From: an uncultured Cellulomonas sp.
GTDB lineage: Bacteria; Actinomycetota; Actinomycetes; Actinomycetales; Cellulomonadaceae
Length of the DNA stretch: 64,000 nucleotides
Reading direction: 5' to 3'
NCBI RefSeq assembly: GCF_947494015.1
Contig: NZ_CANLTL010000003.1
Span: 62,001-126,000 of the forward strand
Below the pieces are notes generated by a model, which saw only the letters and a program-made list of their open reading frames with translations, searched no databases and was not told the DNA's origin. This document shows, piece by piece, positions 11,847 to 27,166 of this stretch. A program made the translations under genes and the position numbers. The stretch's first letter is position 1. The number at the start of each line of letters is the position of its first letter.

Positions 11847-11878
11847 ACCCTCACCGGCCGGCGTCAACGACCGATAAA
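11847..11878 (-). promoter_or_regulatory. Putative SARP-dependent promoter of the secreted-protein gene
   Basis: Reading the minus strand from 11878: heptamer TTTATCG, four bases, heptamer TTGACGC, eight bases, then -10-like GAGGGT at 11852-11847. The spacing is identical to the other four sites in this island. The first heptamer is the weakest of the set. The predicted transcript starts about 100 bases before the ATG at 11737. Confidence 0.55.
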
Positions 11879-11906
11879 CACGCCGGTCGCCGGGCATGGC
11901 GAAGCA

Positions 11907-11931
11907 CCGGCGCGCGCGACGCGCGCGCCGG
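11907..11931. terminator. GC hairpin upstream of the secreted-protein promoter
   Basis: Perfect 11-bp inverted repeat of pure G/C with a 3-base loop. It would block read-through from the minus-strand unit at 12197-12352 into the promoter at 11847-11878. Confidence 0.5.
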
Positions 11932-12145
11932 GTGGCGCTCGGTCCGATGCAGGGGTCGGCGCACGTGTCGCCGGTCCCTGCGCGGGGAGCTCGCGCCGGA
12001 CACCGCTCAGGCCGGGCGGGCGCGGCCACTCGCCGCTCGGGGTCGACGACGTCGCACGGGGCGGCGACGTCCCACGACGGGCCGACGACGCGAGCTCGCA
12101 CCGTGCCCGGTCGTGGGGACCGGTGCGCGGAGGTGGCCGAGCGGA

Positions 12146-12176
12146 GGCGCCCGCTGTCGTGGGTCGACCGGGCGCC
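12146..12176 (-). terminator. Hairpin after the cryptic small ORF
   Basis: Perfect 8-bp stem GGCGCCCG/CGGGCGCC with a 15-base loop, starting 21 bases after the stop of the minus-strand small ORF at 12197-12289. It is placed where a terminator would be expected. Confidence 0.4.
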
Positions 12177-12196
12177 CGCACGCGGATGAGCGGGTA

Positions 12197-12289
12197 TCAG
12201 AGGTGACCGCCCCGGGACGGGGGCGCACGGGGGAGTCGCGGCAGGTGCCGACGGTCTCCCCGGGAGGCGTGGGGACGGGGACGCTGCAC
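12197..12289 (-). CDS. Candidate small ORF, 30-residue Arg/Pro-rich peptide
   Basis: The GTG at 12289 is preceded by a full AAGGAGG at 12300-12294 with four bases between, one of the strongest ribosome-binding sites in the window. The ORF encodes 30 residues rich in Arg, Pro and His and stops with TGA at 12199-12197. A promoter-like element identical in layout to the oxidase promoters lies 32 bases upstream of the start codon (12321-12352), and a hairpin follows (12146-12176), so promoter, RBS, ORF and hairpin form a complete unit. The peptide resembles nothing I recognise, and Arg/Pro-rich sequence is what random GC-rich frames give, so it could instead be a regulatory RNA. Confidence 0.35.
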   Translation of the reverse strand: MQRPRPHASRGDRRHLPRLPRAPPSRGGHL

Positions 12290-12320
12290 GGGTCCTCCTT
12301 CGCGGGTGCGTGGATCGTCG

Positions 12321-12352
12321 ACCGTCCCGAACGGCCGTCAAGCCGCCGACAA
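12321..12352 (-). promoter_or_regulatory. Putative SARP-dependent promoter of the small ORF
   Basis: On the minus strand from 12352: heptamer TTGTCGG, four bases, heptamer TTGACGG, eight bases, -10-like GACGGT at 12326-12321. It diverges from the promoter of the giant oxidase, with 110 bases between the two sites. Confidence 0.5.
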
Positions 12353-12462
12353 ACGCCGCCCCTGGGTGGTCGGACGCCCGGGTGGTGGGTGGTCGGCCCC
12401 CGACCGCCCCGACGGCCGGCCACCGCACGGGAGCGGACCGGTGCGCGGCGTCGCCGCGCGGG

Positions 12463-12494
12463 TTGACGCGAGGTTCACGGGGTCCCCGCAGGGT
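12463..12494 (+). promoter_or_regulatory. Putative SARP-dependent promoter of the giant multicopper oxidase
   Basis: Heptamer TTGACGC at 12463, four bases, heptamer TTCACGG at 12474 (11-bp period), eight bases, -10-like CAGGGT at 12489-12494. Transcription would begin near 12501, giving a leader of about 50 bases before the ATG at 12554. Confidence 0.6.
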
Positions 12495-12553
12495 CGGGGC
12501 CGGGGACGAGCGTGACCGCCGGCACCCCGCCACCGACCACGGAGGAGTCGACG

Positions 12554-15500
12554 ATGCGCAGGCCGCACCGAACGAGCAGCAGCACCGGTCACCCGCGGCG
12601 CGACGCCGCACTCGGGGCGCTGGCCCTCGTGGTGACGACGACGGTCCTGCTGGCTGTGCTGGCGCTGCTCGCGCCGGTCGGGGACGTGGCCGGCGTCGTC
12701 GCCGACCTGCCGATCGCGCTGGCCGCGGTCGCGGCAGCAGCGGCGGCGGCGCCGCGCGCAGCCGCCCCCGCGGGTGGGGTCGTCGTCGCGCGCGCCGGGC
12801 TGGCCGCCGCGGGCGGAGCCGTGGCGGTCGGGGTCGCGTGGGCCGTCGCGACCGCGGCGGACGGCGGCGCGGGCGTCGCCGCCGAGCTCGGGCAGCTGCC
12901 CGCTCAGGCCGGCGCCGCGCTGCTGGTCACGGCGGTCGGCACGGCCCTGCAGCGGCGCCCCCGTGGCGGTACCCGTCCGGGGCGGGCCCGGCGTCTCGTC
13001 GCCACCGCGCTGACCACCAGCGTGGTCGCCACGCTCCTGGTCGTCCCGGCGCAGACGGCCACGGCCACCTCGGCAGCCGTCCCCGGCAGCCCCACCCCGT
13101 GCACCAGCGGCCAGGAGGTGCGGCGCTACGCCGTCGCCGCGGCCACCGTGGACGTCCCGTTCAACCGGTGGGGGGCGACGCTGCGCAGCGCCCGCATCTT
13201 CGTCCTCGAGCAGGACCTCGCCGCCACCACGCACTGGTCGCGACCGCTCGCGGCGGACCCCGCGACGGACCCCGCCAACAACCGGCGCCTGCGCCCGCGG
13301 CCGCTGGTCCTGCGGGCCAACGAGGGCGAGTGCATCAAGGTCACGCTGACGAACCGGATGTCGGCGGAGGCCGCGCACGGGCTGCCGGCCTCGCCGCGCG
13401 TCGGCATCCAGGCGGCCGGGGTCGTGGTGGACGTCCGGGTGGACGGCGGTGTCCGGGCCGGGTTCGACGCCCAGCCGACCGTCGGCATCGGCGAGAGCGT
13501 CTCGTACTTCTGGCGGGTCCCGGCCCAGGAGGGGCTGTTCCTGTTCCAGGACATGGCCACACCCGCCGGCGGTGAGCACGACGCCGGCTCCCGCGGCGTC
13601 GGCCTCTACGGCGCGCTCGCCGTCGAGCCGGCCGGCTCCACCTGGACCGACCCGCGCAGCGGCAAGCTGCTGTCCGGCACGGTCGGCGCCCCCGCGTCGA
13701 CCTACGCCGCCGTGCGGACGCAGAGCGGCGACCTGTATGTCGAGGCGGACATCCACCCACCGAACGCGCCGTCGTTCCGCGAGAGCGTCCAGCTCGCCCA
13801 GGACGAGATCACCGGCATCGGCATGGGCTTCAACTACGGGTCCGAGCCGATGGCCGACCGGGAGGCGAGCGCCTGCCCCGACTGCCTCGGCGAGGAGACC
13901 TGGCTCTCGTCCTGGCCCTACGGCGACCCGGCGCTGGTGAAGCTCGCCAGCGGACCCGGCCCGTGGCTGCCCACCGGCGGGGCGGGGGCGGCCCGGCAGG
14001 AGAAGGAGGACTGCGGTCTGCCCGAGTCCTGCTTCGTGTCCAACGTCGTCCACACCTACACCGGCGACCCGACCAAGATCCGGTTCGGCCTGTCGGGGGT
14101 CAAGGAGACCCACGTCTTCCACCTGCACGCCCACCAGTGGCTCGCCGACCAGCGCAACACCGCCCTCACCGGGGACGGCCCCGACGCGCAGCCGCAGTCG
14201 AGCACGATCGACTCGCAGAGCTTCGGCCCCGGCGAGGCCTACACCGCCGACCTGCTCTACGGGGCCGGCTCGAAGAACGGCACGTTCGGGGACTCGATCT
14301 TCCACTGCCACCTGTACCCGCACTTCGCCGAGGGGTTCTGGGCGCTGCTGCGCGTGCACGACGTCCTGCTCGACGGCGGTGACGCGACCCCGGACGGCGT
14401 CGCCGTGCGGCCGCTGAAGGTGCTCAAGGTGTCCAACGGGCAATCGCGGCCGCCCGCCCCGTCCGCGGACAACCCCGGCTACCCCGGGATGATCCCCGGG
14501 ACCTACGGCTGGCGGGCGCCGCAGCCGCCCGGCTCGATCACCGAGGGCGGCGTCCTGGGGACCCCGGAGCGGCCCGCGCCCCGGCTCGTCGCGGGCCGGA
14601 CCATCCCCGCGGCCAAGCTCGCCGTCGAGCAGGCCGTCAGCCAGCGGCACAACGGCGGCCGCGCCGCGCCGCGGGGTGCGCCGTTCGCCGACCCGTGCCC
14701 GACCGGGGCCCGGGTGGTCGAGTACGACGTCACGGTGCTGCAGCGGGACCTGGTCTACAACGAGGCCGGCCACCACGACCCGCAGGCCCGGTTCATGGTG
14801 CTCACCAAGGACGTGCCCGACATCCTGGCCGGGACGAAGAAGGCCGAACCGCTGTTCCTGCGCGTCAACGCCGGGGACTGCGTCGACTTCTCGCTGACCA
14901 ACATGGCCCCGAACTGGACCGGCGGCGACGCCTTCCAGCAGCTGGCCCAGACGAACATGGCCGGCGGGCACGTCCACCTGGTCAAATTCGACGTCACCGC
15001 GTCCGACGGCGGCTCGAACGGCTGGAACTACCAGCAGGCCGCCTTCACCCGGGACCAGGCCGAGCTGACCCGCCAGCAGGCGGCCGGCCTGACCACCTGC
15101 GCGGCCGGCACGCCGTTCTACGGCGGCCAGAGCACCGGCTGTCGCCTCGCCGACCCGGCCGGCTGGACGCCACCGGTGGACTCCGCGGGCCTGTGGGGCC
15201 AGACGATCCACGAGCGCTGGTACGCCGACTACGAGCTGCGCACCGTGTTCACCCACGACCACCATTTCGCCGCGCTGGTGCAGAACCACGGGCAGTTCGG
15301 CGCGCTCATCGTCGAGCCGAAGGGCTTCGACGTGCGCGACCCCGCGACCGGCCGGTACCTGCAGCCGGTGAACTCGCCCGCCAACGGCACGGTCTGCGCG
15401 ACCCGCTGCGTGGGCGACGCGGTCGGCGAGCAGGTGGACGTCGTCGGCCCCGGCGCCAACGACGACTACCGCGAGTACGGGATCGCCATCGCCGACTTCG

Positions 15501-18500
15501 TCCCCCTGGTCAAGCGCGGCGGCGACCCGCGCAACCCCCACGACGTCGTGTCGCCGCCGGGTGCCCCGGAGCACTACCCCGACGACGACCCCGGGACCTT
15601 CGCCATCAACTACCGCAACGCGCCGCTGGTCGAGCGCCGGGTGTTCGGCGGCCAGGCCGTCGACCCCGCGCACCGGTTCAGCTCCTACGTCTTCGGCGAC
15701 CCCATGACGCCGCTGCTGCGCGGCTACGCACGGGACAACATCAAGCTGCGGGTCATCCAGGGCTCGCAGGAGGAGCAGCACCTGTTCCAGGTGCACGGCC
15801 TGCGTTGGCGCGAGGAGCCGGACGACCCGGGCTCGCCCCTGGTCAACGCCCAGACGATCGGCATCTCCGAGGCCTTCAACGCCGAGCTGCCCGGCTTCGA
15901 CTGCCGGTCCACGGACACCCCGTGCCGCGGCGACCACCTCTACGGCGGCACCAGCATGGACGACCTGTGGAACGGCATGTGGGGGATCATGCGCGTCCAC
16001 GGCAGCCTGCAGCCGGACCTGCGCGCGCTGCCGGACAACCCCGTGGCGACCAACGCGACCGCCGTGACGCCGAAACCGCGCTCCCGGCTCGCACCGCCGG
16101 CCGCGCCCTCGCCCGGCACGGCGTGCCCGACGACGGCCCCGGTGCGGAGCTACGACGTCGTGGCGATCACCCGCGACCTGGTCTACAACGAGCACGGCGA
16201 CCACGACCCGCAGGGGCTGATGTACGTGCTGGCTCAGGACAAGGACGCCGTCCTGGCCGGCACGAAGGCGCCCGAGCCCCTGGTGATCCGCGCCAACGCG
16301 GGCGACTGCGTCCGGGTCGCCCTGACCAACGCGCTGCCCGAGTCGTACGCCGCCGGCACGCCCAACGGCGTCGACGGCGACCCGGCGCTGGTGCTCGAGC
16401 CGCGCGGCGGCAGCCGGATGGGCACGCGGGTGTCGATGCACCCGCAGCTGCTGCGGCACGACGTGCGCCTGTCGGACGGCGCCGCGATCGGGTTCAACCC
16501 CGACTCGACGGTCGGCATCGGCGGCACGATCCGCTACGAGTGGTACGCCGACACCGAGCTCGGCGCGACCAACCTGCTGGACCACGGCGACGTCCGTGGG
16601 CACCGCCAGCACGGGCTCGCGGGCGCGCTCGTCGTCGAGCCGCAGCACGCCACCTACCACGACCCGTTCACCGGCGCGCCGATCAGCAGCGGCGTCACCG
16701 CGGACATCCGGGTGCCCGGTCAGGAGGACTTCCGCGAGATGACCCTGGTCTACCAGGACGGGCTCAACCTGCGGGTCGCCGGTACGAACGCCCAGGTCCC
16801 GGACAAGAAGCTGGCCGACGTCGGTCCGGACGGGGAGCCGGTCGACGAGGTGGAGCCCGACGGCGGTGACGTGCACGCCGGTGGCCACGAGGACGCGGGG
16901 GAGAAGGGCGTGAACTACACCAACGCCCCGCTGCACCGCCGGCTGGGGGCCGCCCCGGGGCAGTTCGCCGCCGCGACCAGCGACGCGTGGGCGGACGTGT
17001 TCTCCTCCGTCGTGCACAAGGACCCGCGGACGCCGATCGCGCGGGCCTACGAGGGCGACCAGCTGCGGGTGCGCGTCCTGGGCGGCAACCGGCCGCGGCA
17101 GATGGGCTTCGCGCTGGACGGCGCCGCATGGCGCTCGGAGCCGTACGACCCCGGCAGCGACCTGGTCGGCGTGCAGGGGGGCATCGGCACCGGAAAGGCG
17201 GTCAACGCCCACGTGCGCCTGCCCAGGTCCGGTGACCACCTGTGGTCGTCCCCGACGACGTTCGGTCTGCCGGACGGCGTGTGGGGCCTCGCGCGGGTCT
17301 ACCCGCGACCCGACGCGACCGCCGGTTTCAGCCCGGCCGCGCGGCGGGTCTCGGACAACCCCTTCGCGGCCGGCAACGCACCCCTGCAGCCGCTCGAGCG
17401 CGCGTCGGCGACGGTCCGGGTCTTCACCGACTCCGACGGCGACGGCACCCGAGACCCGGGGGAGGACCCGACGCCCGGGGTGGAGGTGCGGCTGCTCACC
17501 ACCGCGGGTGCGCCGGTCCTGACGGCCGCCACCGGGCCCGACGGGACGGTCACGTTCTCCCCGGCCCGGGCGTCCTACGACGTCCAGGTCGTCCCGGCCG
17601 GTGGTGGCGTGGTCGTCGGCGCCGCCACCCGGCGCATCGACCTCGGCACCGACGGAGCGCAGGCGGACCTGTCCGTCGCGGTGACGGCGACGAGCGCGGT
17701 GACGGCGGCCGTCTTCGAGGACCTCGACGCCGACGGGGTCCGCGACGACGGCGAACCGGGCGTCGCGGGCTGGACGGTCACGCTCACCGGCGGGTCCGCC
17801 GTGGCACCCGGCCTGACCGGCGGCGACGGCACGGCCGCCTTCGCCGGCGTCCCCGCGGGCAGCTGGTCGGCCGCGCTCGCGCCGCGCACCGGCTGGCGGG
17901 CCACCACCGCGCTCCCGCTCGCGTTCACCGTGGCGTCCGACGGCGCCCGGGTGGCCCTCGGGGTGGCGCGGACGCCCGGCTACCCCGTGCGGGTCGTCGA
18001 CGACGCGGACGAGGACGGCGTGCTGGACGACGGCGAGCCGCCCGTCGACGGCGTGCTGGTGCGCGCGACGCCCGACGGCGGCAGCCCGGTGACCGTCCGC
18101 GCCGGCCCCGACGGCGTCGTCGTCGACCCCGGCGGCCGGCCCGCGCAGGTGGGTGCCCTGCTCCCGGACACCCTGATGGCGTGGGTGTGCTCGACGGCGC
18201 TGGTCACCACCCCCACCGGGACGACCCCGGTGCCGTGCTCGCCCGACGGGACCGTCGCGGTCCCGGCGGACGCGACCGACGTCGCCCTGCTGGGTGCCTT
18301 CACCGGGGGCGTGGTCACCACCGAGCTGTTCGCGGACGCGGATCGCGACGGTCGGCGCGACGCCGGGGAGGCGGCGCTGGTGGACTGGCCGGTCGAGCTG
18401 GTGACGCCCACCGACCACGTCGTGGTCGCGCGGACGACGACGGACGCGGACGGGCTCGCGGGCCTCGTGGCCGCGCCCGGCCGCTACGAGGTCGTGCCGC

Positions 18501-19645
18501 AGCCGCCGACCGGAGACGTCGCCTGGACGCACACGGCCGGCGAGTACGCCGTCGAGGTGGCGCGCGGTCGGGGCGTGCGCAGCGTGGGCGGCTGGGTCCA
18601 GCCGGGCACCGTGTCGGTGAGCGTCTACCACGACCTCGACCGCGACGGCGTCCGGGAGGACGGCGAGGGCCCGCTGGGCGACCGGACCGTCACGCTGCTC
18701 GACGCCGCCGGCACCGCCGTGCTCGCCACCGCCTACACCGACGGCTCGGGACGGGCGGCGTTCCCGACCCAGGCCGGGACGTCGTACCGGGTGCGGGTCG
18801 ACGTGCCGCCCGGCTGGCAGCCCACCGGTCCGCAGCAGGGGACGACCGTCCTGACCACGGTGCCGGTGACGGCGCCCGCCGACGGCGGGCCGGCCGGGGT
18901 CGACGTCGGCCACTACAACACCGTGGACCGCATCGCGCCCCTCGCGCCGGTCATCACGCCCGGCGGGCCCACGACGGTCGCCCTGGAGGTGCCCACGCTG
19001 ATCACGATCACCGGCGAGACGTCGGCGACCGTGCGGTACACGCTCGACGGCACCCTGCCGACGGCGACCCGCGGCATGGTCTACGCCGGGCCCGTGCGGG
19101 TCTCCATGGACCGGACGCTGCACGCGGTCGCCGTGGACGGCGCCGGGAACGTCTCGCCCGTCGCCGCGGCGCAGTTCGACCTGCCGTGGGCGGGGACGTC
19201 CGCCACCGTCACGCCGTCGTCCTGGTCGGTCACGTCCGGCGGGGCGCCGCGCGGCGGCCCCGCCCAGACGGCCGCCGACGACGGGACGCTGCTCGCGGTG
19301 GCGTCGGTGCCCGTGGCGTCCCGCCCGACCGTCGACGTGACCGCCACGGTCCCGGTGCCGGTGGACCTGCGGGCCGCTCGGGCGGTGAGCCTGACCGCGT
19401 CCCTGCGCTCCACGGCGCGCTCCACCCGGGTGCGGGTGCAGTACTGGGACGTCACGGCGGGGCTGTGGCGCCAGGCGACGACCACCACCCAGGGTCTGGA
19501 CGAGGCCCGGGTGGACGTGGACCTGGGGGCGGTCGCCAACCTCGTGGACCGGGCCGGTGCCGTGCGCGTGCGCCTCGTCGCCGACAACGGCAGGCCGTTC
19601 GACCTGCAGGTCGACCACCTGGGGCTGTCGCTGGTGAACCGGTAG
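12554..19645 (+). CDS. Giant MnxG-like multicopper oxidase with SdrD_B-type repeats
   Basis: 2363 residues. The N-terminus has about four hydrophobic segments and then an Arg-rich signal-like helix (about 20-170). Three homologous blocks follow (about 182-713, 714-1189, 1190-1600), each opening with a CPT...V.YDV..L.RDLVYN-type strand and ending in WGxxRVH, consistent with six cupredoxin domains. All copper ligands are visible but in permuted order: HVFHLHAH (H520-H527) and HCHLYPHFAEGF (H584, C585, H586, H590; axial position F595) precede HVH (H806, H808) and HDHH (H901, H903). This layout resembles MnxG-type Mn(II) oxidases. Then five SdrD_B-like repeats with DxDxDGxxDxGE loops (about 1617-2110), a chitobiase-like Ig segment (about 2145-2210) and a C-terminal beta domain. 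ATG at 12554 has GGAGGAG six bases upstream and is preferred to the GTG at 12512. Mn oxidation is inference. Confidence 0.8.
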   Translation: MRRPHRTSSSTGHPRRDAALGALALVVTTTVLLAVLALLAPVGDVAGVVADLPIALAAVAAAAAAAPRAAAPAGGVVVARAGLAAAGGAVAVGVAWAVATAADGGAGVAAELGQLPAQAGAALLVTAVGTALQRRPRGGTRPGRARRLVATALTTSVVATLLVVPAQTATATSAAVPGSPTPCTSGQEVRRYAVAAATVDVPFNRWGATLRSARIFVLEQDLAATTHWSRPLAADPATDPANNRRLRPRPLVLRANEGECIKVTLTNRMSAEAAHGLPASPRVGIQAAGVVVDVRVDGGVRAGFDAQPTVGIGESVSYFWRVPAQEGLFLFQDMATPAGGEHDAGSRGVGLYGALAVEPAGSTWTDPRSGKLLSGTVGAPASTYAAVRTQSGDLYVEADIHPPNAPSFRESVQLAQDEITGIGMGFNYGSEPMADREASACPDCLGEETWLSSWPYGDPALVKLASGPGPWLPTGGAGAARQEKEDCGLPESCFVSNVVHTYTGDPTKIRFGLSGVKETHVFHLHAHQWLADQRNTALTGDGPDAQPQSSTIDSQSFGPGEAYTADLLYGAGSKNGTFGDSIFHCHLYPHFAEGFWALLRVHDVLLDGGDATPDGVAVRPLKVLKVSNGQSRPPAPSADNPGYPGMIPGTYGWRAPQPPGSITEGGVLGTPERPAPRLVAGRTIPAAKLAVEQAVSQRHNGGRAAPRGAPFADPCPTGARVVEYDVTVLQRDLVYNEAGHHDPQARFMVLTKDVPDILAGTKKAEPLFLRVNAGDCVDFSLTNMAPNWTGGDAFQQLAQTNMAGGHVHLVKFDVTASDGGSNGWNYQQAAFTRDQAELTRQQAAGLTTCAAGTPFYGGQSTGCRLADPAGWTPPVDSAGLWGQTIHERWYADYELRTVFTHDHHFAALVQNHGQFGALIVEPKGFDVRDPATGRYLQPVNSPANGTVCATRCVGDAVGEQVDVVGPGANDDYREYGIAIADFVPLVKRGGDPRNPHDVVSPPGAPEHYPDDDPGTFAINYRNAPLVERRVFGGQAVDPAHRFSSYVFGDPMTPLLRGYARDNIKLRVIQGSQEEQHLFQVHGLRWREEPDDPGSPLVNAQTIGISEAFNAELPGFDCRSTDTPCRGDHLYGGTSMDDLWNGMWGIMRVHGSLQPDLRALPDNPVATNATAVTPKPRSRLAPPAAPSPGTACPTTAPVRSYDVVAITRDLVYNEHGDHDPQGLMYVLAQDKDAVLAGTKAPEPLVIRANAGDCVRVALTNALPESYAAGTPNGVDGDPALVLEPRGGSRMGTRVSMHPQLLRHDVRLSDGAAIGFNPDSTVGIGGTIRYEWYADTELGATNLLDHGDVRGHRQHGLAGALVVEPQHATYHDPFTGAPISSGVTADIRVPGQEDFREMTLVYQDGLNLRVAGTNAQVPDKKLADVGPDGEPVDEVEPDGGDVHAGGHEDAGEKGVNYTNAPLHRRLGAAPGQFAAATSDAWADVFSSVVHKDPRTPIARAYEGDQLRVRVLGGNRPRQMGFALDGAAWRSEPYDPGSDLVGVQGGIGTGKAVNAHVRLPRSGDHLWSSPTTFGLPDGVWGLARVYPRPDATAGFSPAARRVSDNPFAAGNAPLQPLERASATVRVFTDSDGDGTRDPGEDPTPGVEVRLLTTAGAPVLTAATGPDGTVTFSPARASYDVQVVPAGGGVVVGAATRRIDLGTDGAQADLSVAVTATSAVTAAVFEDLDADGVRDDGEPGVAGWTVTLTGGSAVAPGLTGGDGTAAFAGVPAGSWSAALAPRTGWRATTALPLAFTVASDGARVALGVARTPGYPVRVVDDADEDGVLDDGEPPVDGVLVRATPDGGSPVTVRAGPDGVVVDPGGRPAQVGALLPDTLMAWVCSTALVTTPTGTTPVPCSPDGTVAVPADATDVALLGAFTGGVVTTELFADADRDGRRDAGEAALVDWPVELVTPTDHVVVARTTTDADGLAGLVAAPGRYEVVPQPPTGDVAWTHTAGEYAVEVARGRGVRSVGGWVQPGTVSVSVYHDLDRDGVREDGEGPLGDRTVTLLDAAGTAVLATAYTDGSGRAAFPTQAGTSYRVRVDVPPGWQPTGPQQGTTVLTTVPVTAPADGGPAGVDVGHYNTVDRIAPLAPVITPGGPTTVALEVPTLITITGETSATVRYTLDGTLPTATRGMVYAGPVRVSMDRTLHAVAVDGAGNVSPVAAAQFDLPWAGTSATVTPSSWSVTSGGAPRGGPAQTAADDGTLLAVASVPVASRPTVDVTATVPVPVDLRAARAVSLTASLRSTARSTRVRVQYWDVTAGLWRQATTTTQGLDEARVDVDLGAVANLVDRAGAVRVRLVADNGRPFDLQVDHLGLSLVNR

Positions 19646-19682
19646 GCGCGGCACTCCCCGCGAGCGCGCGCGGATGCGGACG

Positions 19683-19711
19683 CCGCACCCGGCGGCGGTG
19701 GGCGGGTGCGG
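19683..19711 (+). terminator. Hairpin after the giant oxidase
   Basis: Perfect 9-bp stem (19683-19691 with 19703-19711), 11-base loop, 38 bases past the stop. It separates the giant oxidase transcript from the next promoter. Confidence 0.55.
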
Positions 19712-19733
19712 TGACGGGCTGCGGGCACCGGTG

Positions 19734-19765
19734 TTGACGCTCGGTTGACACCGGTCCCGCAGTCT
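19734..19765 (+). promoter_or_regulatory. Putative SARP-dependent promoter of the DUF4352-CopD pair
   Basis: The clearest of the five sites: TTGACGC at 19734 and TTGACAC at 19745 (11-bp period), then eight bases and -10-like CAGTCT at 19760-19765. The leader to the GTG at 19804 would be about 32 bases. Confidence 0.65.
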
Positions 19766-19803
19766 CGTCCTGGTCGGGACAGGCCCGCGACCGGGAGGCG
19801 AAC

Positions 19804-20592
19804 GTGGACCAGCTGGTGATCGAGCGGACCCCACGGGGACGCGTGCGCGGCGGCGGACCGGGCGTCGAGCCGACGCCGGCCACCTCGTCCGTCGCGCCGG
19901 GGGCCACCGCGAGAGCGGTGCCTGTCCGGGCGCGCCAGTGGCGCACGGTCGGTGCGGTCTGGGCGGGTGTCGCCCTCGTGCTGCTCGCGGCGGCGTGGTC
20001 GGTCCTGCACGGCTGGGGCCGCGGCCCCGTCCCGGGACCCGGCGAGCTGGCGCTGGGCGACGGCCTGGTGCGCGTGGACGCCGTCGTGTCCGCCGCCCGG
20101 CCGCAGCACGCCATGCCGGGCATGGGCACCGACGAGGACCCGGTCGCCGCGGGGGACCGCCGGGTGTCCGTCGACGTCACCCTGCTCGCCGGTGCCGGGC
20201 CGCTGGAGTACGCGGCGGACAGGTTCGCGCTCGCGGTCGACGGCGCCGCCGCGGATCCGCTGCCCCACCGCGCCGTCCTGCCCGGCGACGTGCTGCCCGC
20301 CGGCACGCAGCTGTCCGGGACGCTCGTCTTCGACGTCCCGGTCGACGCCACGTCGGCCACCCTCAGCTACCGGGGAGCCGGGTCGACCGACGTCGCGCTG
20401 CCGCCCGAGGCGTCCGGGCCGGCCGGCGCCGACCCGTCATCCGCCGGCGGTCACGACCTGGCCGGCCACGGCCCGGCCCAGGGGGACTCGGCCGGGGATG
20501 ACGCGGCCGGGGATGACGCGGCCGGCGACGGCCCGGTGCCGGCCGGCGACCTGCCCGCCGAGGTCGCCGCGGACCCGGAGGAGGGGCGATGA
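19804..20592 (+). CDS. Membrane-anchored DUF4352-like protein, possible copper carrier
   Basis: 262 residues. A cytoplasmic N-terminus of about 45 residues is followed by one transmembrane helix (VGAVWAGVALVLLAAAWSVL), then an extracellular DUF4352-like beta domain (LGDGLVRVDAVV ... GTQLSGTLVFDVP). HAMPGMG within this domain is a His/Met cluster of the sort found in extracytoplasmic copper proteins. The C-terminal 60 residues are low-complexity Asp/Gly/Ala with GDDAA repeats and further His. GTG start has GGGAGG five bases upstream. Its stop overlaps the CopD-family ATG, so the two are co-translated. I infer that it hands copper to or from the CopD-like partner; the DUF4352 family itself has no single function. 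Confidence 0.65.
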   Translation: MDQLVIERTPRGRVRGGGPGVEPTPATSSVAPGATARAVPVRARQWRTVGAVWAGVALVLLAAAWSVLHGWGRGPVPGPGELALGDGLVRVDAVVSAARPQHAMPGMGTDEDPVAAGDRRVSVDVTLLAGAGPLEYAADRFALAVDGAAADPLPHRAVLPGDVLPAGTQLSGTLVFDVPVDATSATLSYRGAGSTDVALPPEASGPAGADPSSAGGHDLAGHGPAQGDSAGDDAAGDDAAGDGPVPAGDLPAEVAADPEEGR

Positions 20593-21749
20593 CCACGGTG
20601 ACGACCCCGTCGGGCGCGACCGGCCCGGTGACCGTGCGACCCGACCCGCAGCCGGCATCCGAACCCGTCCCGCGCCGGGTCGCAGGTCCGGGTCCCGCGG
20701 GCACCACCGCGCTCGCGGTGCTCGTCGTGCTCGGCGTGCTGGTGGGTGCGGCCCAGGTCGGCGGAGCCGCCGACCCGGTGAGCATCGGCGACCCCGGCCC
20801 GGTGACGCGCTGGGGGCTGCTGGTCTCGCGCACGGTGTACGACCTGACGGCCATCGGCACGCTCGGCACGCTCGTCGTCGCCGTGCTGCTGCTGCCGCGC
20901 GACGGCGACGGCTTCGGGCCCGACGCCGCCCGGCTCGTCCGGGTCACGACGCGGTGGTCGGCTGCGTGGGCGGTCACCGCGGTGACCACGATGCTGCTCA
21001 CGCTGTCCGACGTCGCCGGTCGGCCCGTGCTGCAGGTGCTCGCCCCGGACGTCCTGCCGCTCGCGCTGGACCTGGACACCACCCGGTCGCTGCTGTCGTC
21101 CGCGTGGCTGGCGGCCCTCGTCGCGGTCGGGACCCGGGTCGCGCGGTCGCCGGCCACCGGGCTGCTGGTGCTGCTCGCGGCCGTCGGAGCCGTGGTGCTG
21201 CCCCTGCTGACCGGGCACGCCGGGCACGGGGAGCTGCCCGCCCTGACCGCGACCAGCCTCGCCCTGCACGTGGTCGCCGCTGCGGCCTGGGTCGGCGGGC
21301 TCGCGGCTCTTGTGCTGCACGTGCGCCGGTCGGGTGCCGCGCTGGCCGTCGCGCTGCCGAGGTTCAGCAGCCTGGCCCTGGTCTGCTTCGGCCTCGTCGG
21401 CGTCTCGGGCGCGGTGACCGGGTGGGCCTCGCTGGGCGGGCTGGGTGACCTGTGGGCGTCGTCGTACGGCCGGCTGCTGCTGGCCAAGCTGGCCGTGCTC
21501 GTCGGGCTCGGGCTCGCCGGTCACCTCCACCGCAGGCGCACGATCGCCGCAGTCCTGGCGCGACGTCCGCGCGGCTTCGTCCGGCTGGCGGCGGGGGAGC
21601 TGGTCCTCATGGGGGCCGCGGCGGCCCTGGCCGTGGCGCTGTCCCACACCCCTCCGCCGGTGCAGCCCGACCACGCGGCGCCGGCCGCCGCCTCGGCGCC
21701 TGCTGTCCCGGTCGTCGCTGCCGCGCCCCCGCTCCCGGCCGCCCGCTGA
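20589..21749 (+). CDS. CopD family copper transport membrane protein
   Basis: 386-residue polytopic membrane protein with about eight hydrophobic helices, matching the CopD/PcoD family involved in copper movement across the inner membrane. Visible family features are the LLTGHAGHGELPALTATSLALHVVAAAAWVGGLAAL helix pair (with its conserved His and WVGG, about 208-245) and the YGRLLLAKLAVL helix. ATG at 20589 overlaps the upstream stop by four bases. The C-terminus is Ala/Pro-rich. In this setting it could supply copper to the exported oxidases rather than confer resistance; that is inference from neighbours. Confidence 0.8.
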   Translation: MTTVTTPSGATGPVTVRPDPQPASEPVPRRVAGPGPAGTTALAVLVVLGVLVGAAQVGGAADPVSIGDPGPVTRWGLLVSRTVYDLTAIGTLGTLVVAVLLLPRDGDGFGPDAARLVRVTTRWSAAWAVTAVTTMLLTLSDVAGRPVLQVLAPDVLPLALDLDTTRSLLSSAWLAALVAVGTRVARSPATGLLVLLAAVGAVVLPLLTGHAGHGELPALTATSLALHVVAAAAWVGGLAALVLHVRRSGAALAVALPRFSSLALVCFGLVGVSGAVTGWASLGGLGDLWASSYGRLLLAKLAVLVGLGLAGHLHRRRTIAAVLARRPRGFVRLAAGELVLMGAAAALAVALSHTPPPVQPDHAAPAAASAPAVPVVAAAPPLPAAR

Positions 21750-21765
21750 CGGCGTCCAGCCGTCA
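21747..21765 (+). terminator. Small hairpin at the CopD stop
   Basis: Perfect 7-bp stem TGACGGC/GCCGTCA with a 5-base loop, beginning in the stop codon. Short, so attenuating at best. Confidence 0.35.
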
Positions 21766-21786
21766 ACAACGCCCGGAATGTCCCTT

Positions 21787-21818
21787 TTGACGCTGCCTTG
21801 ATGGTCCGCCTCGACGGT
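21787..21818 (+). promoter_or_regulatory. Putative SARP-dependent promoter of the Tat multicopper oxidase
   Basis: TTGACGC at 21787 and TTGATGG at 21798 (11-bp period), eight bases, -10-like GACGGT at 21813-21818. Start site near 21825, leader about 45 bases. Confidence 0.55.
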
Positions 21819-21870
21819 GGTCCCGGACGGACGCTCTCGGTCCGAAGGTCGCACAGCAAGGAGATGTGAG

Positions 21871-23565
21871 ATGAACGTCAGTCGTCGCGAGGCACTCGGC
21901 CTGGGCGCGCTGGGTGCGCTCGGTGTGGCCGGGCTGACCCTGCCCATGGCGGGTTCCGGGGTCGAGGCGGCCTCGATCAGCAAGCTGGCACCGCGCAACA
22001 TGCCCAAGCCGTACGGCGTCAAGCTCGTCCGCCCGCCCGTGCTGCCGTTCGCGGACATGGAGGACAAGGACGGCCGCTACCGGCTCTACACCGTGACGGA
22101 GCAGGCCGGTCTGGCCAGCATCGTGCCGGGCCTGAAGACGCCGGTGTTCGGCTACAACGCGATCGCGCCCGGCCCGACGATCCGCGTGCCGCAGAACATG
22201 CGGGTCAAGCTGCGGGTGCGCAACCAGCTGCCGGCGCTCAACCCGATCAGCGGCGAGACCTTCAACACCTCGACCCACCTGCACGGCTCGGCCTCGCTGC
22301 CGCAGTACGACGGGTACGCCGACGACGTCGCGCACAAGGACGACTACAAGGACTACTGGTACCCGAACTGGCAGCCGGCCCGCACGCTCTGGTACCACGA
22401 CCACAACGTGCACACCACGGCGCAGAACGCCTACTCGGGGCTCGCGGCGCAGTACCACCTGACCGACCGGGCCGAGCGCGAGCTGCTGCCGCAGGGCCAC
22501 TACGACGTGCCGCTGACCATCACCGACGCGATGTTCGCGGCGAACGGGTCGCTGGCCTACGACGACAACAGCCACTCCGGGCTGTGGGGCGACGTGATCC
22601 TGGTCAACGGCCGGCCGTGGCCGGTGCTGCAGGTCAAGCGCAAGATCTACCGGTTCCGCGTGCTGAACGCGTCGATCGCCCGGTCCCTGCGGCTGCGGCT
22701 GAGCAACGGCGCCCCGCTGGTCATGGTGGCCACGGACGGCGGCCTGATGCCCAAGGCGCGGCCGGTGGCCGACTACCGGCACGCGGGCGCGGAGCGGTAC
22801 GAGTGGCTGGTCGACTTCTCCCAGTACCCCGTCGGCACCACCATCGACCTGCAGAACCTCAGCAACAAGAACAACGTCGACTACGACAACACCAACAAGG
22901 TGATGCGGTTCGAGGTCGTCGCGGACACCGCCCTGCCACCGGACAGCGCCGCCAGCAAGACGCTCAGCCAGATGCCCGACACGCTGGTGAGCAGCGACGC
23001 GATGAGCCTGACCAGCGCCGACTCGACCGGCAGCTTCTACATGCGCCTCGAGCGCGACGACGTGACCAACCAGTTCCAGATCAGCGGCAAGTCCTGGGAG
23101 GACGTGCAGGCCAGCGGCCACCAGGCCCTGCTGACCCGGGTCCAGCCCGATCAGGTGCAGATGTGGACGGTGGAGAACCGGACCGGTGGCGGATGGTTCC
23201 ACCCGCTGCACATCCACCTGGTGGACTTCCAGATCTTCTCGCGCAACGGCCGGGCGCCCTTCGACTACGAGCGGGGCCCCAAGGACGTCGTCTACGTGGG
23301 CGAGGACGAGACGGTCAAGCTGCTCATGAAGTTCACCCTGCAGAAGGGCGGCGGCAACACCGTCAACGCCGGCGGACGCTACATGGTCCACTGCCACAAC
23401 CTGCCGCACGAGGACCACGACATGATGCACCAGTTCGCCGTCGGCGACCCCGCCGTCAACGACCCGATCCTCGCCGCCCCGTGCAAGGAGGACTACGGCG
23501 AGTACCCCGACGACGGCTGGCCGTACGGCAGCGGCGACGGCTCCGGCGACACGGCCGACGCCTGA
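21871..23565 (+). CDS. Tat-exported multicopper oxidase (CotA/bilirubin-oxidase-like)
   Basis: 564 residues. The twin-arginine signal SRREALGLGALGALG begins at residue 4 and implies export in folded, copper-loaded form. Three cupredoxin domains carry the four canonical motifs in normal order: HLHG (H136, H138), WYHDH (H176, H178), HPLHIH (H444, H447, H449) and HCHNLPHEDHDM (H507, C508, H509, H513, axial M518). A Met axial ligand is typical of CotA/CueO-type enzymes of moderate type 1 copper potential, in contrast to the Phe of the giant oxidase upstream. ATG at 21871 is preceded by AAGGAG. The next gene, a signal peptidase, starts three bases after the stop, so they form one transcript. The physiological substrate is unknown; metals, phenols and bilirubin are all possible for the family. 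Confidence 0.88.
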   Translation: MNVSRREALGLGALGALGVAGLTLPMAGSGVEAASISKLAPRNMPKPYGVKLVRPPVLPFADMEDKDGRYRLYTVTEQAGLASIVPGLKTPVFGYNAIAPGPTIRVPQNMRVKLRVRNQLPALNPISGETFNTSTHLHGSASLPQYDGYADDVAHKDDYKDYWYPNWQPARTLWYHDHNVHTTAQNAYSGLAAQYHLTDRAERELLPQGHYDVPLTITDAMFAANGSLAYDDNSHSGLWGDVILVNGRPWPVLQVKRKIYRFRVLNASIARSLRLRLSNGAPLVMVATDGGLMPKARPVADYRHAGAERYEWLVDFSQYPVGTTIDLQNLSNKNNVDYDNTNKVMRFEVVADTALPPDSAASKTLSQMPDTLVSSDAMSLTSADSTGSFYMRLERDDVTNQFQISGKSWEDVQASGHQALLTRVQPDQVQMWTVENRTGGGWFHPLHIHLVDFQIFSRNGRAPFDYERGPKDVVYVGEDETVKLLMKFTLQKGGGNTVNAGGRYMVHCHNLPHEDHDMMHQFAVGDPAVNDPILAAPCKEDYGEYPDDGWPYGSGDGSGDTADA

Positions 23566-23568
23566 CCG

Positions 23569-24051
23569 GTGGCCATGTCCAGGCGGGTCCTCGTCGCGGC
23601 GGCCGGGGTGGCCGGGGCGGTGCTGCTGGTCCGCGGCACCGCCCTGGAGCCCCGGGTGGTGACGTCGCCCAGCATGGAGCCGACGCTGGGCGTCGGGACC
23701 GTGGTGCTGGTGGACAAGCTCAGCGTCCGCTGGGACGAGCTCCGCGTGGACGACCTGGTCGTCTTCACCAGCCCGCAGGACGGCGACGACGCGGTCAAGC
23801 GCGTCGTCGCCGTCGGCGGGCAGACCGTGGCGCTGCGCGACGCCGTCCTGCACGTCGACGGCGAGCCGGTGGACGAGCCGCAGGTCGACCTCAGCCGGAT
23901 CGACGGCACGTGGTTCGGGCCGGTGACGGTGCCCCAGGGGTCGGTCTTCGTCCTGGGGGACTCGCGGTCGGGGTCCATCGACTCCCGGGTCTACGGAGCC
24001 GTCCCGGTCGACGCCGTCCGGGGGCGCGTCGTGCTGACTCTCCCGTCCTAG
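23569..24051 (+). CDS. Signal peptidase I (S26 family)
   Basis: 160-residue membrane serine protease. One N-terminal helix (about 5-20) is followed by the catalytic Ser in SPSMEPTL and the general-base Lys in VKRVVAVGGQTVAL, then GDSRSGSIDSRVYGAVP. The Ser/Lys dyad makes it a bacterial P-type enzyme, not a SipW-like Ser/His type. It is short compared with housekeeping LepB. The start may be GTG at 23569 or ATG at 23575. Operonic position after the Tat oxidase suggests a dedicated peptidase for the island's exported proteins. Convergent with the SARP gene, only seven bases apart. Confidence 0.85.
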   Translation: MAMSRRVLVAAAGVAGAVLLVRGTALEPRVVTSPSMEPTLGVGTVVLVDKLSVRWDELRVDDLVVFTSPQDGDDAVKRVVAVGGQTVALRDAVLHVDGEPVDEPQVDLSRIDGTWFGPVTVPQGSVFVLGDSRSGSIDSRVYGAVPVDAVRGRVVLTLPS

Positions 24052-24058
24052 CCGGCCG

Positions 24059-27000
24059 CTACCCGGCGCTCTCCTCCCGGGGGCCGGTCCGCACCATGGC
24101 CAGGGTGCGGGGCAGGTCGACGCGGACGTGCTCCGCGCGCTCGCGGCGGGCGCGCGCCGCGAGCACCTGCAACCCGTGCTGGTGCGCCAACGAGCTGGCC
24201 TGGGCGCACGCGTCCGCGGCGCCCTCGTGGTCACCGCGGGCGGCCCGGACCGCCGCCCGCGCCATGCGGCGCCAGAACTCCTCCCGAGGCCCGCCCAGCG
24301 CGGCACCCACGATGTCGTCGTAGACCTCGAAGGCCGCCCGCGCGGACGCGGGGTTGTTGCTCGCCTCGAGCACGACCAGCCGTGCCGCGGCCTCCGGGAC
24401 GAGCAGCGTGCAGCCGGCCGCGGGCCCGTCCTCGACCACCGACCGCAGCTGTTCGGTGGCGTGCCGGTGGTCGCCCATCGCGCCGGCCAGCTCCGAGCCG
24501 GCGAGGCGTGCCAGCTGGTCGACCAGGACGCTGGCCGGGCCGCCGGCGAACGGCAGGTGCTGGGACATCGCCTGCGCCAGGTCGAGCTCCTCGCGCTCCA
24601 CGCAGATGCGCAGCCCGAGGGCGGCCAGCTCGGGGATCAGGTCGTCCACGGCGCCCCGGAGCACCCGGTCCCGCAGCACGCGCCACAGCGCGTCGAACCC
24701 GGGATCGCCCAGGTCGTGCGCGACGACGGCGCGCATGCCGAGCAGCCGCCAGCCCAGGCGCTCGTCCCCGAGGTCGGCCGCGACCCGACCGGCCGCCTCC
24801 AGGGCGCTGTGCGCGGTGCGCGCGCCGCCGAGCAGGACGGACGGGACGTACCGGACCAGGTCCGCGCGCAGCCGGTCCGCCGGCCGCGGGCCCAGTGCCA
24901 CGGCGGCCTCGAGCGTCTCGTGCACGGCGCGGAACTCGCGCCGGTGCAGGTACACCGAGCCGGCCAGCCGGACCCGGGCGTGGAAGCCGGCGCGCCGGTC
25001 GTGCGTCCGGTCGGCCTGCGCGACGGCGTCGAGCAGGGTGTCCTCCAGGCTCCGCTCCGGGCCGGTGGCGGCGGCCGCCGACGCCAGACCGGACAACGCA
25101 CGCGACCACTCCGGGGTCACCGCGTCGGCGGTCTGCTCGAGCGTGCGAGGGTCGCTCACCCCGGTCAGCTTGCGCCGCAGCCGGGCGGCGTCGGGCACGG
25201 CGTCCGCGAGCGCGATGTCGAGCGCGGTCGTGTAGGCCTCCCGCGCCTCGTCGGTCAGCCGGAGCATCGCGCACGCGTCGCCGAGCTGCTCGAACAGCTC
25301 GATCCGGTCGGCCGTGGCGGCCTCGCGCAGGTCGCCCAGGGAGCAGACCTGCAGCAGGTGCGTGCGAGCGCCCGCGTGGTTGCCGCGGGCCGACGCCTCC
25401 TCGGCGGCCTGCAGGGCGGCGACGCAGGCCAGCTCCCGCTCGCCGGCCTGCAGCCAGTGGCCGATGCGGTGCGCCGTCGGGATCGGTGCCTGCTCGGCGA
25501 CCCGTCGGTGCAGCCGCCGGCGCACGGACGGTCGCATCCACGCGCGGGCGGCGTCCTGCAGGCGGGGGTGGCGCCACACGGCGCCGGCCGGCGAGGCCTG
25601 CAGCACGGACAGGTCCACGAGCTGCTCGAGCGCGGTGGTGGCGCGGACCCGCGGCAGGCCCGGGCCGTCGGGCAGCACCGGCGCGAGCACGGAGGGGGTG
25701 AGTGGCTCGTCGATGACCGCGGCGATGTGCAGGGCCTCGAGCGCGTCGCCCTCGAGCCGCGGGAGCGCGCCGGCGAGCACCCGCCGGCCCCAGGGGTCGT
25801 CGCCGGCGGCATCGGCCTCGGGGGCCAGCGCGAGGCCGGCGTCGGTGCCGACCAGGCGGCCGGCCCGCGCCCAGGACTGCACGGTCGCCTCGACCTCGCC
25901 CGGCAGCGCGTCGGACGCCGCGACGAGGGACTCGACCAGGCCGGCGGTGACCGGGCCGGCCAGCAGGTGCCGGGCGAGCTGCTCGACCTCGTCCACGAGC
26001 AGTGGAGGCACGGTCATCGTGCGCACCCCGTGGGCGCTGACCAGCGCGTCCCATGCCGGGTCCTCACCGGGCGCCGGGGTCGCCAGCAGGACGGTGCAGC
26101 TGCCCACGACCGCGGCCGGGTCGGCGAGCAGCCGCGACAGCAGCGGCAGCTCCGCGGCGGTGTCCGGTCGCCACAGCAGGACGCGGGCGCCGGACTCCAC
26201 GGCGACCTGCAGGTCCGCGGCCGTCTCCACGCGGACCGGCCGCAGCCCCGCGTCCTGGCAGGCGACCGTCGCCAGGCGACGTCGGCCGCTGCCGGTGCGC
26301 CCGGCCAGGACGGCGATGCGCGGCCCGGTCCCCGCGACGTCCGCGAGCATGCTGGCCAGCCATTCCAGCTCGGCGTGCCGCCCGACGAAGGGGGCGGGGC
26401 CGCGGGTCGGCGCGCCGCCACCCGCCTGCAGCACCTGCAGGTGCACCGCGCGCGTCTGCGGGGAGGGGTCGACGCCGAGCTCGTCGGCGAGGACCCGACG
26501 GCACCGCTCGTACTCGCGCAGCGCGTGGTGCACCTCGCCCATCCCGGAGTGGCCGAGCATGAGCACGCGGCTGGCCAGCTCGGACACCGGGTCGAGCTGG
26601 AGCAGGCGGGCGGCGTAGTCGACGGCGTCGCGCATCCAGCCCAGCTCGAGGGCCAGCTCGGCGGCCTGCCCGAGCAGCCGCCGGTGCGCCGCGGCGAGGT
26701 CCTCGGAGTGCTGGCGGATCGCCGCGGGGGAGGCCTCCGTGGTGGGCACGTCGGTGAGGTACAGCGAGTCGGCCTCGCGGGCGGCGGCCAGCACCGCCGC
26801 CGGGTCGCCCTCCCGGCGACGGTGGGTCACGTGCTCGGCGATGCCCCGGAACGTGGTGGCGTCCACCCAGGCCGACCGCAGGACGACGTCGGACCCCGAC
26901 CGCTCGATCACCTCGGCGCCCAGGACCCGGCGCAGGTGCGAGACCGCGGTCCGCAGGCTCGCCCGGGCGCGGCTCTCGTCGACCTCCGGCCACAGGCCCT

Positions 27001-27166
27001 CGATCAGCGCCTCCACGGCCACCGGGCGGCCGCCCTCGAGCGCGAGCCACCGCAGCAGATCGGCGTTCTTGCCCGTCCGCCAGTCCTTGTCGCGGATCAG
27101 GTCCCCGTCGGCCGAGCGGACCCGCAGGGGACCCAGCACCCGGATCTCGATCCAGTCGGTCGTCAT
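24059..27166 (-). CDS. SARP/AfsR-type transcriptional regulator (wHTH-BTAD-ATPase-TPR)
   Basis: 1035 residues. The N-terminal OmpR-like winged helix (about 5-95, opening WIEIRVLGPLRVR) and BTAD domain (about 98-245, ending in DPSPQTRAVHLQVLQ) define the Streptomyces antibiotic regulatory protein family. A STAND-like ATPase region begins with FVGRHAEL; its P-loop is AGRTGSGRRR (about 285-295), with Arg where Walker A has Lys, so ATP binding may be weakened. The C-terminal half is TPR-like helical repeat. SARPs bind 11-bp-spaced heptamer repeats just upstream of the -10 element, and five such sites occur at 11.8-21.8 kb. I start at the ATG at 27166, which overlaps the stop of a short upstream ORF; the in-frame ATG at 27238 is the alternative. 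Confidence 0.88.
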   Translation of the reverse strand: MTTDWIEIRVLGPLRVRSADGDLIRDKDWRTGKNADLLRWLALEGGRPVAVEALIEGLWPEVDESRARASLRTAVSHLRRVLGAEVIERSGSDVVLRSAWVDATTFRGIAEHVTHRRREGDPAAVLAAAREADSLYLTDVPTTEASPAAIRQHSEDLAAAHRRLLGQAAELALELGWMRDAVDYAARLLQLDPVSELASRVLMLGHSGMGEVHHALREYERCRRVLADELGVDPSPQTRAVHLQVLQAGGGAPTRGPAPFVGRHAELEWLASMLADVAGTGPRIAVLAGRTGSGRRRLATVACQDAGLRPVRVETAADLQVAVESGARVLLWRPDTAAELPLLSRLLADPAAVVGSCTVLLATPAPGEDPAWDALVSAHGVRTMTVPPLLVDEVEQLARHLLAGPVTAGLVESLVAASDALPGEVEATVQSWARAGRLVGTDAGLALAPEADAAGDDPWGRRVLAGALPRLEGDALEALHIAAVIDEPLTPSVLAPVLPDGPGLPRVRATTALEQLVDLSVLQASPAGAVWRHPRLQDAARAWMRPSVRRRLHRRVAEQAPIPTAHRIGHWLQAGERELACVAALQAAEEASARGNHAGARTHLLQVCSLGDLREAATADRIELFEQLGDACAMLRLTDEAREAYTTALDIALADAVPDAARLRRKLTGVSDPRTLEQTADAVTPEWSRALSGLASAAAATGPERSLEDTLLDAVAQADRTHDRRAGFHARVRLAGSVYLHRREFRAVHETLEAAVALGPRPADRLRADLVRYVPSVLLGGARTAHSALEAAGRVAADLGDERLGWRLLGMRAVVAHDLGDPGFDALWRVLRDRVLRGAVDDLIPELAALGLRICVEREELDLAQAMSQHLPFAGGPASVLVDQLARLAGSELAGAMGDHRHATEQLRSVVEDGPAAGCTLLVPEAAARLVVLEASNNPASARAAFEVYDDIVGAALGGPREEFWRRMARAAVRAARGDHEGAADACAQASSLAHQHGLQVLAARARRERAEHVRVDLPRTLAMVRTGPREESAG

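Follow-up and report, generated by a model that had tools for sequence, protein, structure and literature searches.

A predicted SARP-controlled regulon of exported copper oxidases around a MnxG-like giant in Cellulomonas

Introduction

At the afsS promoter, the Streptomyces antibiotic regulatory protein (SARP) AfsR occupies positions -40 to -19, a 22-bp box made up of two 11-bp repeats, and contacts T at -38 and -27; the promoter has a poor -35 (TTCAGC) and the -10 element CACTGT, and AfsR engages region 4 of sigma (PMC10936776). The AfsR repeat has been given as CGTT(T/C)ATCGNN (PMC10972967). The example of EmbR shows that the action of SARP-type proteins is not confined to antibiotic clusters (PMC9239209). 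Here we describe an island of an uncultured Cellulomonas sp. in which five boxes of the afsS layout stand among genes for exported oxidases, next to the gene of a large SARP (P0007; 24059-27166, - strand). The island lies in the window, which is the whole stretch of 64,000 nucleotides that was analysed (positions 62001-126000 of contig C3), within a genome (G000) of 4,280,562 bases in 44 contigs with 75% G+C. Coordinates without a genome label are those of the window.

The control of manganese (Mn) oxidases has been described in Pseudomonas, with MnxS1/S2 together with MnxR and predicted sigma-54/IHF sites in P. putida (PMC11930936), and effects of FleQ and c-di-GMP on the Pseudomonas Mn oxidase (PMC9765421). 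In 2025 both the control of bacterial Mn oxidases and the reason for making Mn oxides were called unknown (PMC11930936), and Mn(II) oxidation has been reported for a Cellulomonas isolate from soil (PMC3772008). A literature search, with most subscription papers outside its coverage, returned no paper joining a SARP with MnxG, and in the part available of PMC9436591 MnxG occurs once, in a figure legend. Searches for SARP together with manganese oxidation gave only fungal peroxidase and lignin papers, as judged from titles and the beginnings of abstracts, and no link of SARP or AfsR with multicopper oxidases, copper or Mn oxidation was found among the matches listed, as far as their text was available. 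From the analysis below we consider it likely that the large SARP is a dedicated activator of an exported copper-oxidase regulon centred on a MnxG-like giant, which probably oxidises Mn(II).

Results

Five boxes with the layout of the afsS promoter

The sequence-only reading had proposed five 32-bp sites, each made of two heptamers, 4 bp apart, and a hexamer 8 bp further on. Reading the sequence directly, we observed all five with this 7-4-7-8-6 layout. Box A (12463-12494, + strand; TTGACGC gagg TTCACGG ggtccccg CAGGGT) stands upstream of the MnxG-like giant oxidase gene, box B (19734-19765, +; TTGACGC tcgg TTGACAC cggtcccg CAGTCT) upstream of the P0003-CopD pair, and box C (21787-21818, +; TTGACGC tgcc TTGATGG tccgcctc GACGGT) upstream of the genes for a multicopper oxidase and a signal peptidase. 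On the other strand, box D (11847-11878, -; TTTATCG gtcg TTGACGC cggccggt GAGGGT) is found upstream of the gene for a secreted 183-aa protein, with 109 nt from the end of the hexamer to the ATG, while box E (12321-12352, -; TTGTCGG cggc TTGACGG ccgttcgg GACGGT) lies 583 nt upstream of the same gene. The proposed position immediately ahead of genes was thus seen for boxes A to D and not for box E, whose distance of 583 bp leaves only box D near the secreted-protein gene. We are unsure which gene box E drives. A 30-codon open reading frame (ORF) with a GTG start and GGAGG ahead of it (12200-12291, -) was observed directly downstream of this box, and could be its target.

With the hexamer placed at -12 to -7, the first bases of the heptamers fall at -38 and -27, which are the positions of the T bases contacted by AfsR. 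The resemblance to published SARP promoters, with direct repeats of 11-bp period and the 3' repeat 8 bp from the -10 element, was confirmed, the layout and spacing of the boxes being equal to those of AfsR at afsS (PMC10936776). They differ from a plain sigma-70 promoter with a TTGACA-type -35 and 16-18 bp to the -10, as the spacers measure 20 bp from the first repeat and 9 bp from the second. The first heptamer of box D had been called poor, a judgement that we withdraw, since TTTATCG is the heptamer inside the published AfsR repeat (PMC10972967). By this geometry, the boxes would be targets of the island SARP.

The boxes against the background of the genome

Two patterns were used for genome-wide searches, a degenerate one (TTSACGN5TTSAYGN10ANNNT) and a strict one (TTGACGN5TTGACGN9GANGGT), while matrix scans covered the window and a sample of about 0.4 Mb (403 kb) of the host genome. 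The matrix was built from relatives only, using 15 sites of which 10 came from Cellulomonas aerilata (G179), a species of the host's genus, and 5 from a genome of the host's order and another family (G581); the C. aerilata box of locus L101 was found later than the matrix was built and is outside it. In this semi-independent test, boxes A to E were ranks 1 to 5 among approximately 128,000 window positions on both strands, scoring 28.8 (A), 34.5 (B), 20.7 (C), 18.9 (D) and 23.7 bits (E), with rank 6 at 5.1 bits. A matrix from the five G581 sites alone, from the other family, also placed A to E first in the window, the lowest of them at 10.7 and the sixth position at 9.4, a narrow margin. Within the 403-kb sample, two sites on contig C12 scored 31.8 and 22.7 bits and the next independent score was 14.7; the sample partly overlaps the window, and box D shows again there at 18.9 bits.

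Controls agreed with these scans. At 18.8 bits on the window, 991 of 1000 column-shuffled matrices gave no match and 9 gave one, as opposed to five for the real matrix, and the best score of the reversed matrix was 11.8. Among 25 spacing combinations (at least 16 bits), the 4/8 bp combination gave 5 matches and the other 24 gave 0 to 2. A chance alignment of the five sites was ruled out by the relatives-only matrices, the shuffles and the spacing test together.

The strict pattern at up to 3 mismatches gave 14 matches in the host genome compared with 3 for the reversed pattern; the 14 include A, C, D and E, and the island holds the best two. With up to 1 mismatch allowed, the degenerate pattern gave 7 matches in 4.28 Mb, namely A, B, C, E, two on C12 and one on C16 that lies antisense inside an ORF. 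Box D has 3 mismatches to this pattern, yet reached 18.9 bits in the matrix. Heptamer pairs at 11-bp period numbered 3 in 373 kb of sampled host genome, a sample partly fetched around weak matches and if anything enriched, versus 4, 3 and 3 in three islands. A background frequency across the genome had been named as what would refute the proposal, and for close matches these pattern searches did not find it.

The large SARP and its DNA-contact residues

A SARP gene had been placed at the end of the island, and both a BTAD and a winged-helix domain were found at 24059-27166 (- strand). P0007 (1035 aa) consists of a winged helix, a BTAD, a P-loop-like domain and a weak TPR match. Its BTAD covers the full PF03704 model (E 1.6e-20), which places it among the SARPs. 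The winged helix scored 25.9 bits with PF00486, just short of the cut-off of 26.2, and phmmer alignments span the DNA-binding domains of AfsR (8hvr, E 3.5e-13) and EmbR (2fez, E 1.9e-10), together indicating the OmpR-type fold of SARPs. The PF00072 receiver match that an OmpR/PhoB response regulator would show was not found in P0007, and its score of 56.4 bits with the NCBIfam AfsR equivalog NF053617 (cut-off 1430) does not make it an AfsR orthologue.

All six SARPs compared retain W74, R87 and R94 of AfsR, and the host and C. aerilata proteins are identical at 12 of 12 AfsR DNA-contact positions compared. These two share T88 and S91 with AfsR and carry H for R92 and R for K95, while the G581 SARP has N, G, Q and K at positions 88, 91, 92 and 95. 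The first heptamer begins with TTC in 5 of 5 G581 boxes and mostly with TTG in the host and C. aerilata. The P-loop of P0007 (residues 289-296) reads GRTGSGRR, that of the C. aerilata SARP on contig C12 GRQGSGRR and that of G581 GAEGSGRT. In these three the P-loop lysine is replaced by arginine, while lysine is present in the C. aerilata paralogues on C1 and C7 and in the SARP of G004; because of this replacement, ATP control of P0007 may differ from that of AfsR.

A second island of C. aerilata (L021, G179:C1:24000-43900) contains a 37-40% identical SARP with an oxidase, CopD and an S26 peptidase, and no such box was observed there. This second SARP has N88 and R92, and with these residues it may recognise a different sequence.

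Autoregulation of the SARP by a box of its own was ruled out, as none was observed among the 15 best matches of the window.

Conservation of the boxes in Cellulomonas aerilata

C. aerilata has an orthologous island, with identities of 72% for the SARP, 73% over most of its length for the giant, 59% for P0003, 64% for CopD, 55% for the oxidase and 48% for the S26 peptidase. Its boxes stand in front of the same three units (giant, P0003-CopD and oxidase). Five host and C. aerilata promoter pairs (giant, P0003-CopD, oxidase and two secreted proteins) were compared without gaps. The core was identical at 59 of 60 positions, the other box positions at 48 of 100, and the 60-bp flanks at 227 of 600 (38%); the core positions were picked from the pattern, so that their identity is partly built in, which does not apply to the low identity around and between them. 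By box, core identity was 12/12 for A, 12/12 for B and 11/12 for C. At box B, we saw by eye an inverted repeat overlapping the box (19727-19755; ACCGGTGT ... ACACCGGT), and at its C. aerilata orthologue a different pair that is also complementary (GGACGGGTGT ... ACACCCGTCC).

Eleven matches to the degenerate pattern at up to 1 mismatch were found in C. aerilata, and all eleven are upstream of a gene; for some of these genes the longest mechanical ORF begins over or before the box, and the start was taken from homology. Three precede the island units, one a second copy of the oxidase P0005, and two precede homologues (70-72% identity) of the secreted proteins of host contig C12. Another precedes a secreted protein on C1 that is 35% identical to a G581 protein likewise boxed. 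The remaining boxes stand before two paired multicopper oxidase genes, of which the first has a twin-arginine-like start, before a membrane-like ORF of about 210 codons that is apparently almost leaderless and is followed by a DUF1775 protein, before tatA-tatC, and before a short membrane-like ORF. As a conserved target, tatA-tatC was ruled out, with its box in C. aerilata alone among six genomes compared at up to 4 mismatches of the strict pattern. A suspected broken oxidase copy in C. aerilata (L018) was also ruled out; the TGA is codon 549 and its natural end, and the copy looks whole.

Outside the island of the host, the two C12 boxes precede two paralogous genes in tandem, at distances of approximately 120 and 135 bp. 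The proteins are 53% identical to each other, contain fn3 and chitobiase-type domains, and appear secreted (export signals were judged by eye throughout). This observation supports a predicted regulon that would extend past the island to these two tandem secreted-protein genes.

Co-occurrence of boxes and SARP across genomes

Among 221 genomes of the family, the SARP (E up to 1e-70) was found in three, G000, G179 (3 copies) and G004, and the oxidase P0005 (E up to 1e-60) in the same three. The MnxG core (E up to 1e-40) was found in two, G000 and G179. At up to 2 mismatches, the strict pattern gave 6 matches in G000 and 8 in G179, while the other 219 genomes gave 67 together (mean 0.31, summed over per-genome rows), 49 of them with any match and a maximum of 4 (G159). 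The Poisson chance of at least 8 matches at this mean is about 1e-9, a rough figure because genome compositions differ. The degenerate pattern without mismatch was found 4 times in G000, 9 in G179 and once in G581, and was absent from G180, G181, G182 and G004; at up to 1 mismatch the counts were 7, 11 and 7, and then 1, 1, 3 and 2, respectively. The G004 match G004:C159:3405(-) is away from the region upstream of the oxidase and was not counted as a box. Searching genome contigs for the SARP matched C. aerilata alone, and the order-wide search returned 2 of 396 genomes (G000 and G581); its draw contained no match in G179, which the family search did detect.

G581 contains the island (oxidase 75%, giant 65-75% and SARP 37-40% identical) with five boxes, before the giant, CopD, a 751-aa protein, a 795-aa protein and the oxidase. 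Four were found at up to 1 mismatch and one (L028:14126) at 2, accepted as it is just upstream of an island gene; of the 7 matches at up to 1 mismatch, those on C5, C10 and C13 are outside the box set. An identical 32-bp string with 2 mismatches to the pattern was observed three times in this genome (C3:86138, C14:388339, C16:226071) and looks like a repeated element.

Across 394 genomes of the class, the MnxG core (E up to 1e-50) was found in four, the host, G629, G646 and G915. Seven MnxG-like loci could be compared, and the three in SARP-bearing islands all have an upstream box, while the four with no SARP nearby have none. For G629, G646, G915 and the second MnxG-like gene of C. aerilata, neither a SARP nor an upstream box (up to 2 mismatches) was observed in the stretch fetched, though G915 (4,974 bp) and G629 (14,136 bp) are short contigs with about 1 kb or less before the gene, and a SARP or box may lie beyond. 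Since the SARP-less MnxG-like loci are unboxed, the box tracks the SARP rather than MnxG, and a general MnxG promoter signal was ruled out by these same loci.

Histidine kinase and response regulator genes adjoin the SARP gene in G581 (L028:6726-8956) and G004 (L100:2558-4607), and in C. aerilata a histidine kinase gene adjoins a boxed secreted-protein gene (L062:4009-5712). It is possible that these neighbouring two-component genes provide the signal input.

Genes of the island

The giant gene (12554-19645, +) encodes a protein of 2363 aa that carries SdrD_B repeats and a domain of the chitobiase C-terminal type. It had been described simply as a giant oxidase, which is right as to oxidase and under-called it, as its best solved relative is MnxG (PDB 9bxa, E 4.3e-202 across five stretches). 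P0003 (19804-20592, +) appears, by eye, to be membrane-anchored and has a weak DUF4352 match under the cut-off, and is followed by a CopD-type copper membrane protein (20589-21749, +; Pfam PF05425, E 4.4e-16). P0005 (21871-23565, +) is a multicopper oxidase of the bilirubin oxidase/CotA/CueO kind (PDB 2xll, E 1.9e-84), whose nearest solved structures are bilirubin oxidase and CotA and whose N terminus looks twin-arginine-like. It is followed by an S26 signal peptidase (23569-24051, +; Pfam PF10502, E 4.3e-35; TIGR02227 above cut-off). The 183-aa protein at the other end (11186-11737, -) has a signal sequence and no Pfam or NCBIfam match.

Discussion

The proposal of a SARP regulon is borne out by the phylogenetic footprint, by the co-occurrence of boxes and SARP, and by further boxes before related genes. 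Geometry, linkage, co-occurrence and residue similarity strongly suggest the SARP as the protein that binds the boxes, where it would act as activator. In the mechanism that we propose, two SARP protomers would sit side by side on the paired TTSAYG-like heptamers, which repeat with an 11-bp period at -38 and -27, cover a poor -35 and lie 8 bp from a -10 of the sAnnGT type, and the protomers would hold sigma-70 RNA polymerase at the promoter like AfsR at afsS. This would jointly switch on the MnxG-like oxidase, the bilirubin-oxidase/CotA-type oxidase with its signal peptidase, P0003-CopD, and secreted surface proteins both within the island and beyond it. In C. aerilata, the regulon would also take in the DUF1775 operon, another oxidase pair and tatA-tatC. 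We lean, by a little, toward a wider proposal in which a SARP whose recognition helix is altered and whose P-loop lacks the usual lysine would, through one box, act as master activator for an actinobacterial programme of Mn(II) oxidation; with the same slight preference, that programme would comprise the MnxG-like oxidase, the second oxidase, copper supply, either a signal peptidase or export by Tat, and surface proteins.

Several observations weigh against the dedicated-activator reading. None of the 15 best matrix matches of the window is a box of the SARP gene itself, and in C. aerilata two of the four P0005 copies and the second MnxG-like gene are without a box, while the tatA box is absent from the host and from the rest of the five other genomes compared (strict pattern, up to 4 mismatches). 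The relatives' sites were found by patterns modelled on the window sites, hence the matrix test is semi-independent only. At up to 2 mismatches the degenerate pattern is at background level (21 matches in the host compared with 22 in G180, 34 in G181 and 33 in G182), and because this count is no higher than in island-free genomes, only close matches stand out. G159 is without such a SARP, yet has 4 strict-pattern matches at up to 2 mismatches, and G004 has the SARP and the oxidase, yet has none at that threshold; a box-like layout in G004 was seen by eye only, departs from the degenerate pattern at 4 positions and was left out of all counts. As for the protein, AfsR contacts a base through R92, which is replaced by H in the host and by Q in G581, and all six SARPs compared carry E for P79.

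The rival that survives best accepts a SARP-driven regulon and assigns it to copper handling, cell-surface building or laccase-type oxidation instead of Mn(II) oxidation, a possibility we take seriously while judging it the less likely. CopD, DUF1775, the signal peptidase and the fn3/chitobiase-type proteins under the boxes would fit it, as would the score of the giant with NCBIfam MnxG (NF041487; E 2e-120, 403 bits), which is under the equivalog cut-off of 3100 and is a further point against our reading. Because of this score, Mn(II) as the putative substrate of the giant rests on homology to 9bxa. On the other side, MnxG is the best solved relative of the giant over five stretches, and Mn oxidase activity has been reported for CotA, a relative of P0005 (PMC3618234).

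A second rival keeps the boxes and the regulon and has them bound by another OmpR/PhoB-type regulator, for example a PhoP-like one, with the SARP a passenger or acting elsewhere. OmpR-type proteins bind 11-bp direct repeats, and a response regulator of the OmpR/PhoB type could read a similar repeat here, which also counts against the SARP as binder. PhoP also recognises the AfsR repeats at afsS (PMC10972967), and two-component genes adjoin the SARP in G581 and G004. We regard this rival as improbable, as the boxes track the SARP across genomes, G004 being the unclear case; the two-component regulator of G004 is of the LuxR/GerE type and not OmpR-like, in that of G581 a receiver domain only was seen, and the island genes of the window (11186-27166) gave no match to a Pfam response-regulator domain. 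That the boxes are ordinary sigma-70 promoters, alike by chance or through shared housekeeping use, is suggested by the similarity of TTGACG to a -35 hexamer and is very improbable given spacers nowhere near 17 bp, the rarity of the two-repeat layout (the 7 matches in 4.28 Mb), and the conservation of the doubled core between species.

If true, the wider, master-activator proposal would describe a control of Mn oxidases unlike MnxS1/S2-MnxR (PMC11930936) and FleQ/c-di-GMP (PMC9765421), and a role of SARPs outside antibiotic synthesis. With a compact regulon defined by its sequence, a candidate activator and a target list, the question of Mn-oxidase control becomes testable in a named species, C. 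aerilata, and the secreted proteins of unknown function on that list may take part in mineral formation. The reach of SARPs would widen past antibiotic clusters, with a precise DNA code, and natural differences in recognition-helix residues can be compared with those in the boxes, as between G581 and the host with C. aerilata.

Comparison with described systems

The system closest in promoter layout is AfsR of S. coelicolor (PDB 8hvr). Like P0007 it combines a winged helix with a BTAD, its afsS target has two 11-bp direct repeats over the -35 and 8 bp to a poor -10, the -10 CACTGT also occurs at one C. aerilata box, and several DNA-contact residues are kept. In contrast, P0007 is 30% identical over the SARP part, carries H for R92 and arginine for the P-loop lysine, and its putative targets are exported oxidases and not afsS. 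EmbR of M. tuberculosis (PDB 2fez) shares the SARP-type DNA-binding and BTAD domains and regulates outside antibiotic clusters (PMC9239209); it differs by an FHA domain (PMC10936776) where P0007 has its P-loop and TPR parts, and by targets that concern hypoxia, lipids and secretion (PMC9239209). MnxG (PDB 9bxa) is homologous to the giant, and in both cases a Mn oxidase gene would be under a dedicated regulator, although the giant bears additional SdrD_B and chitobiase-type parts. Unlike the control of the Pseudomonas Mn oxidases, that of the Cellulomonas island would involve a SARP at sigma-70-type promoters.

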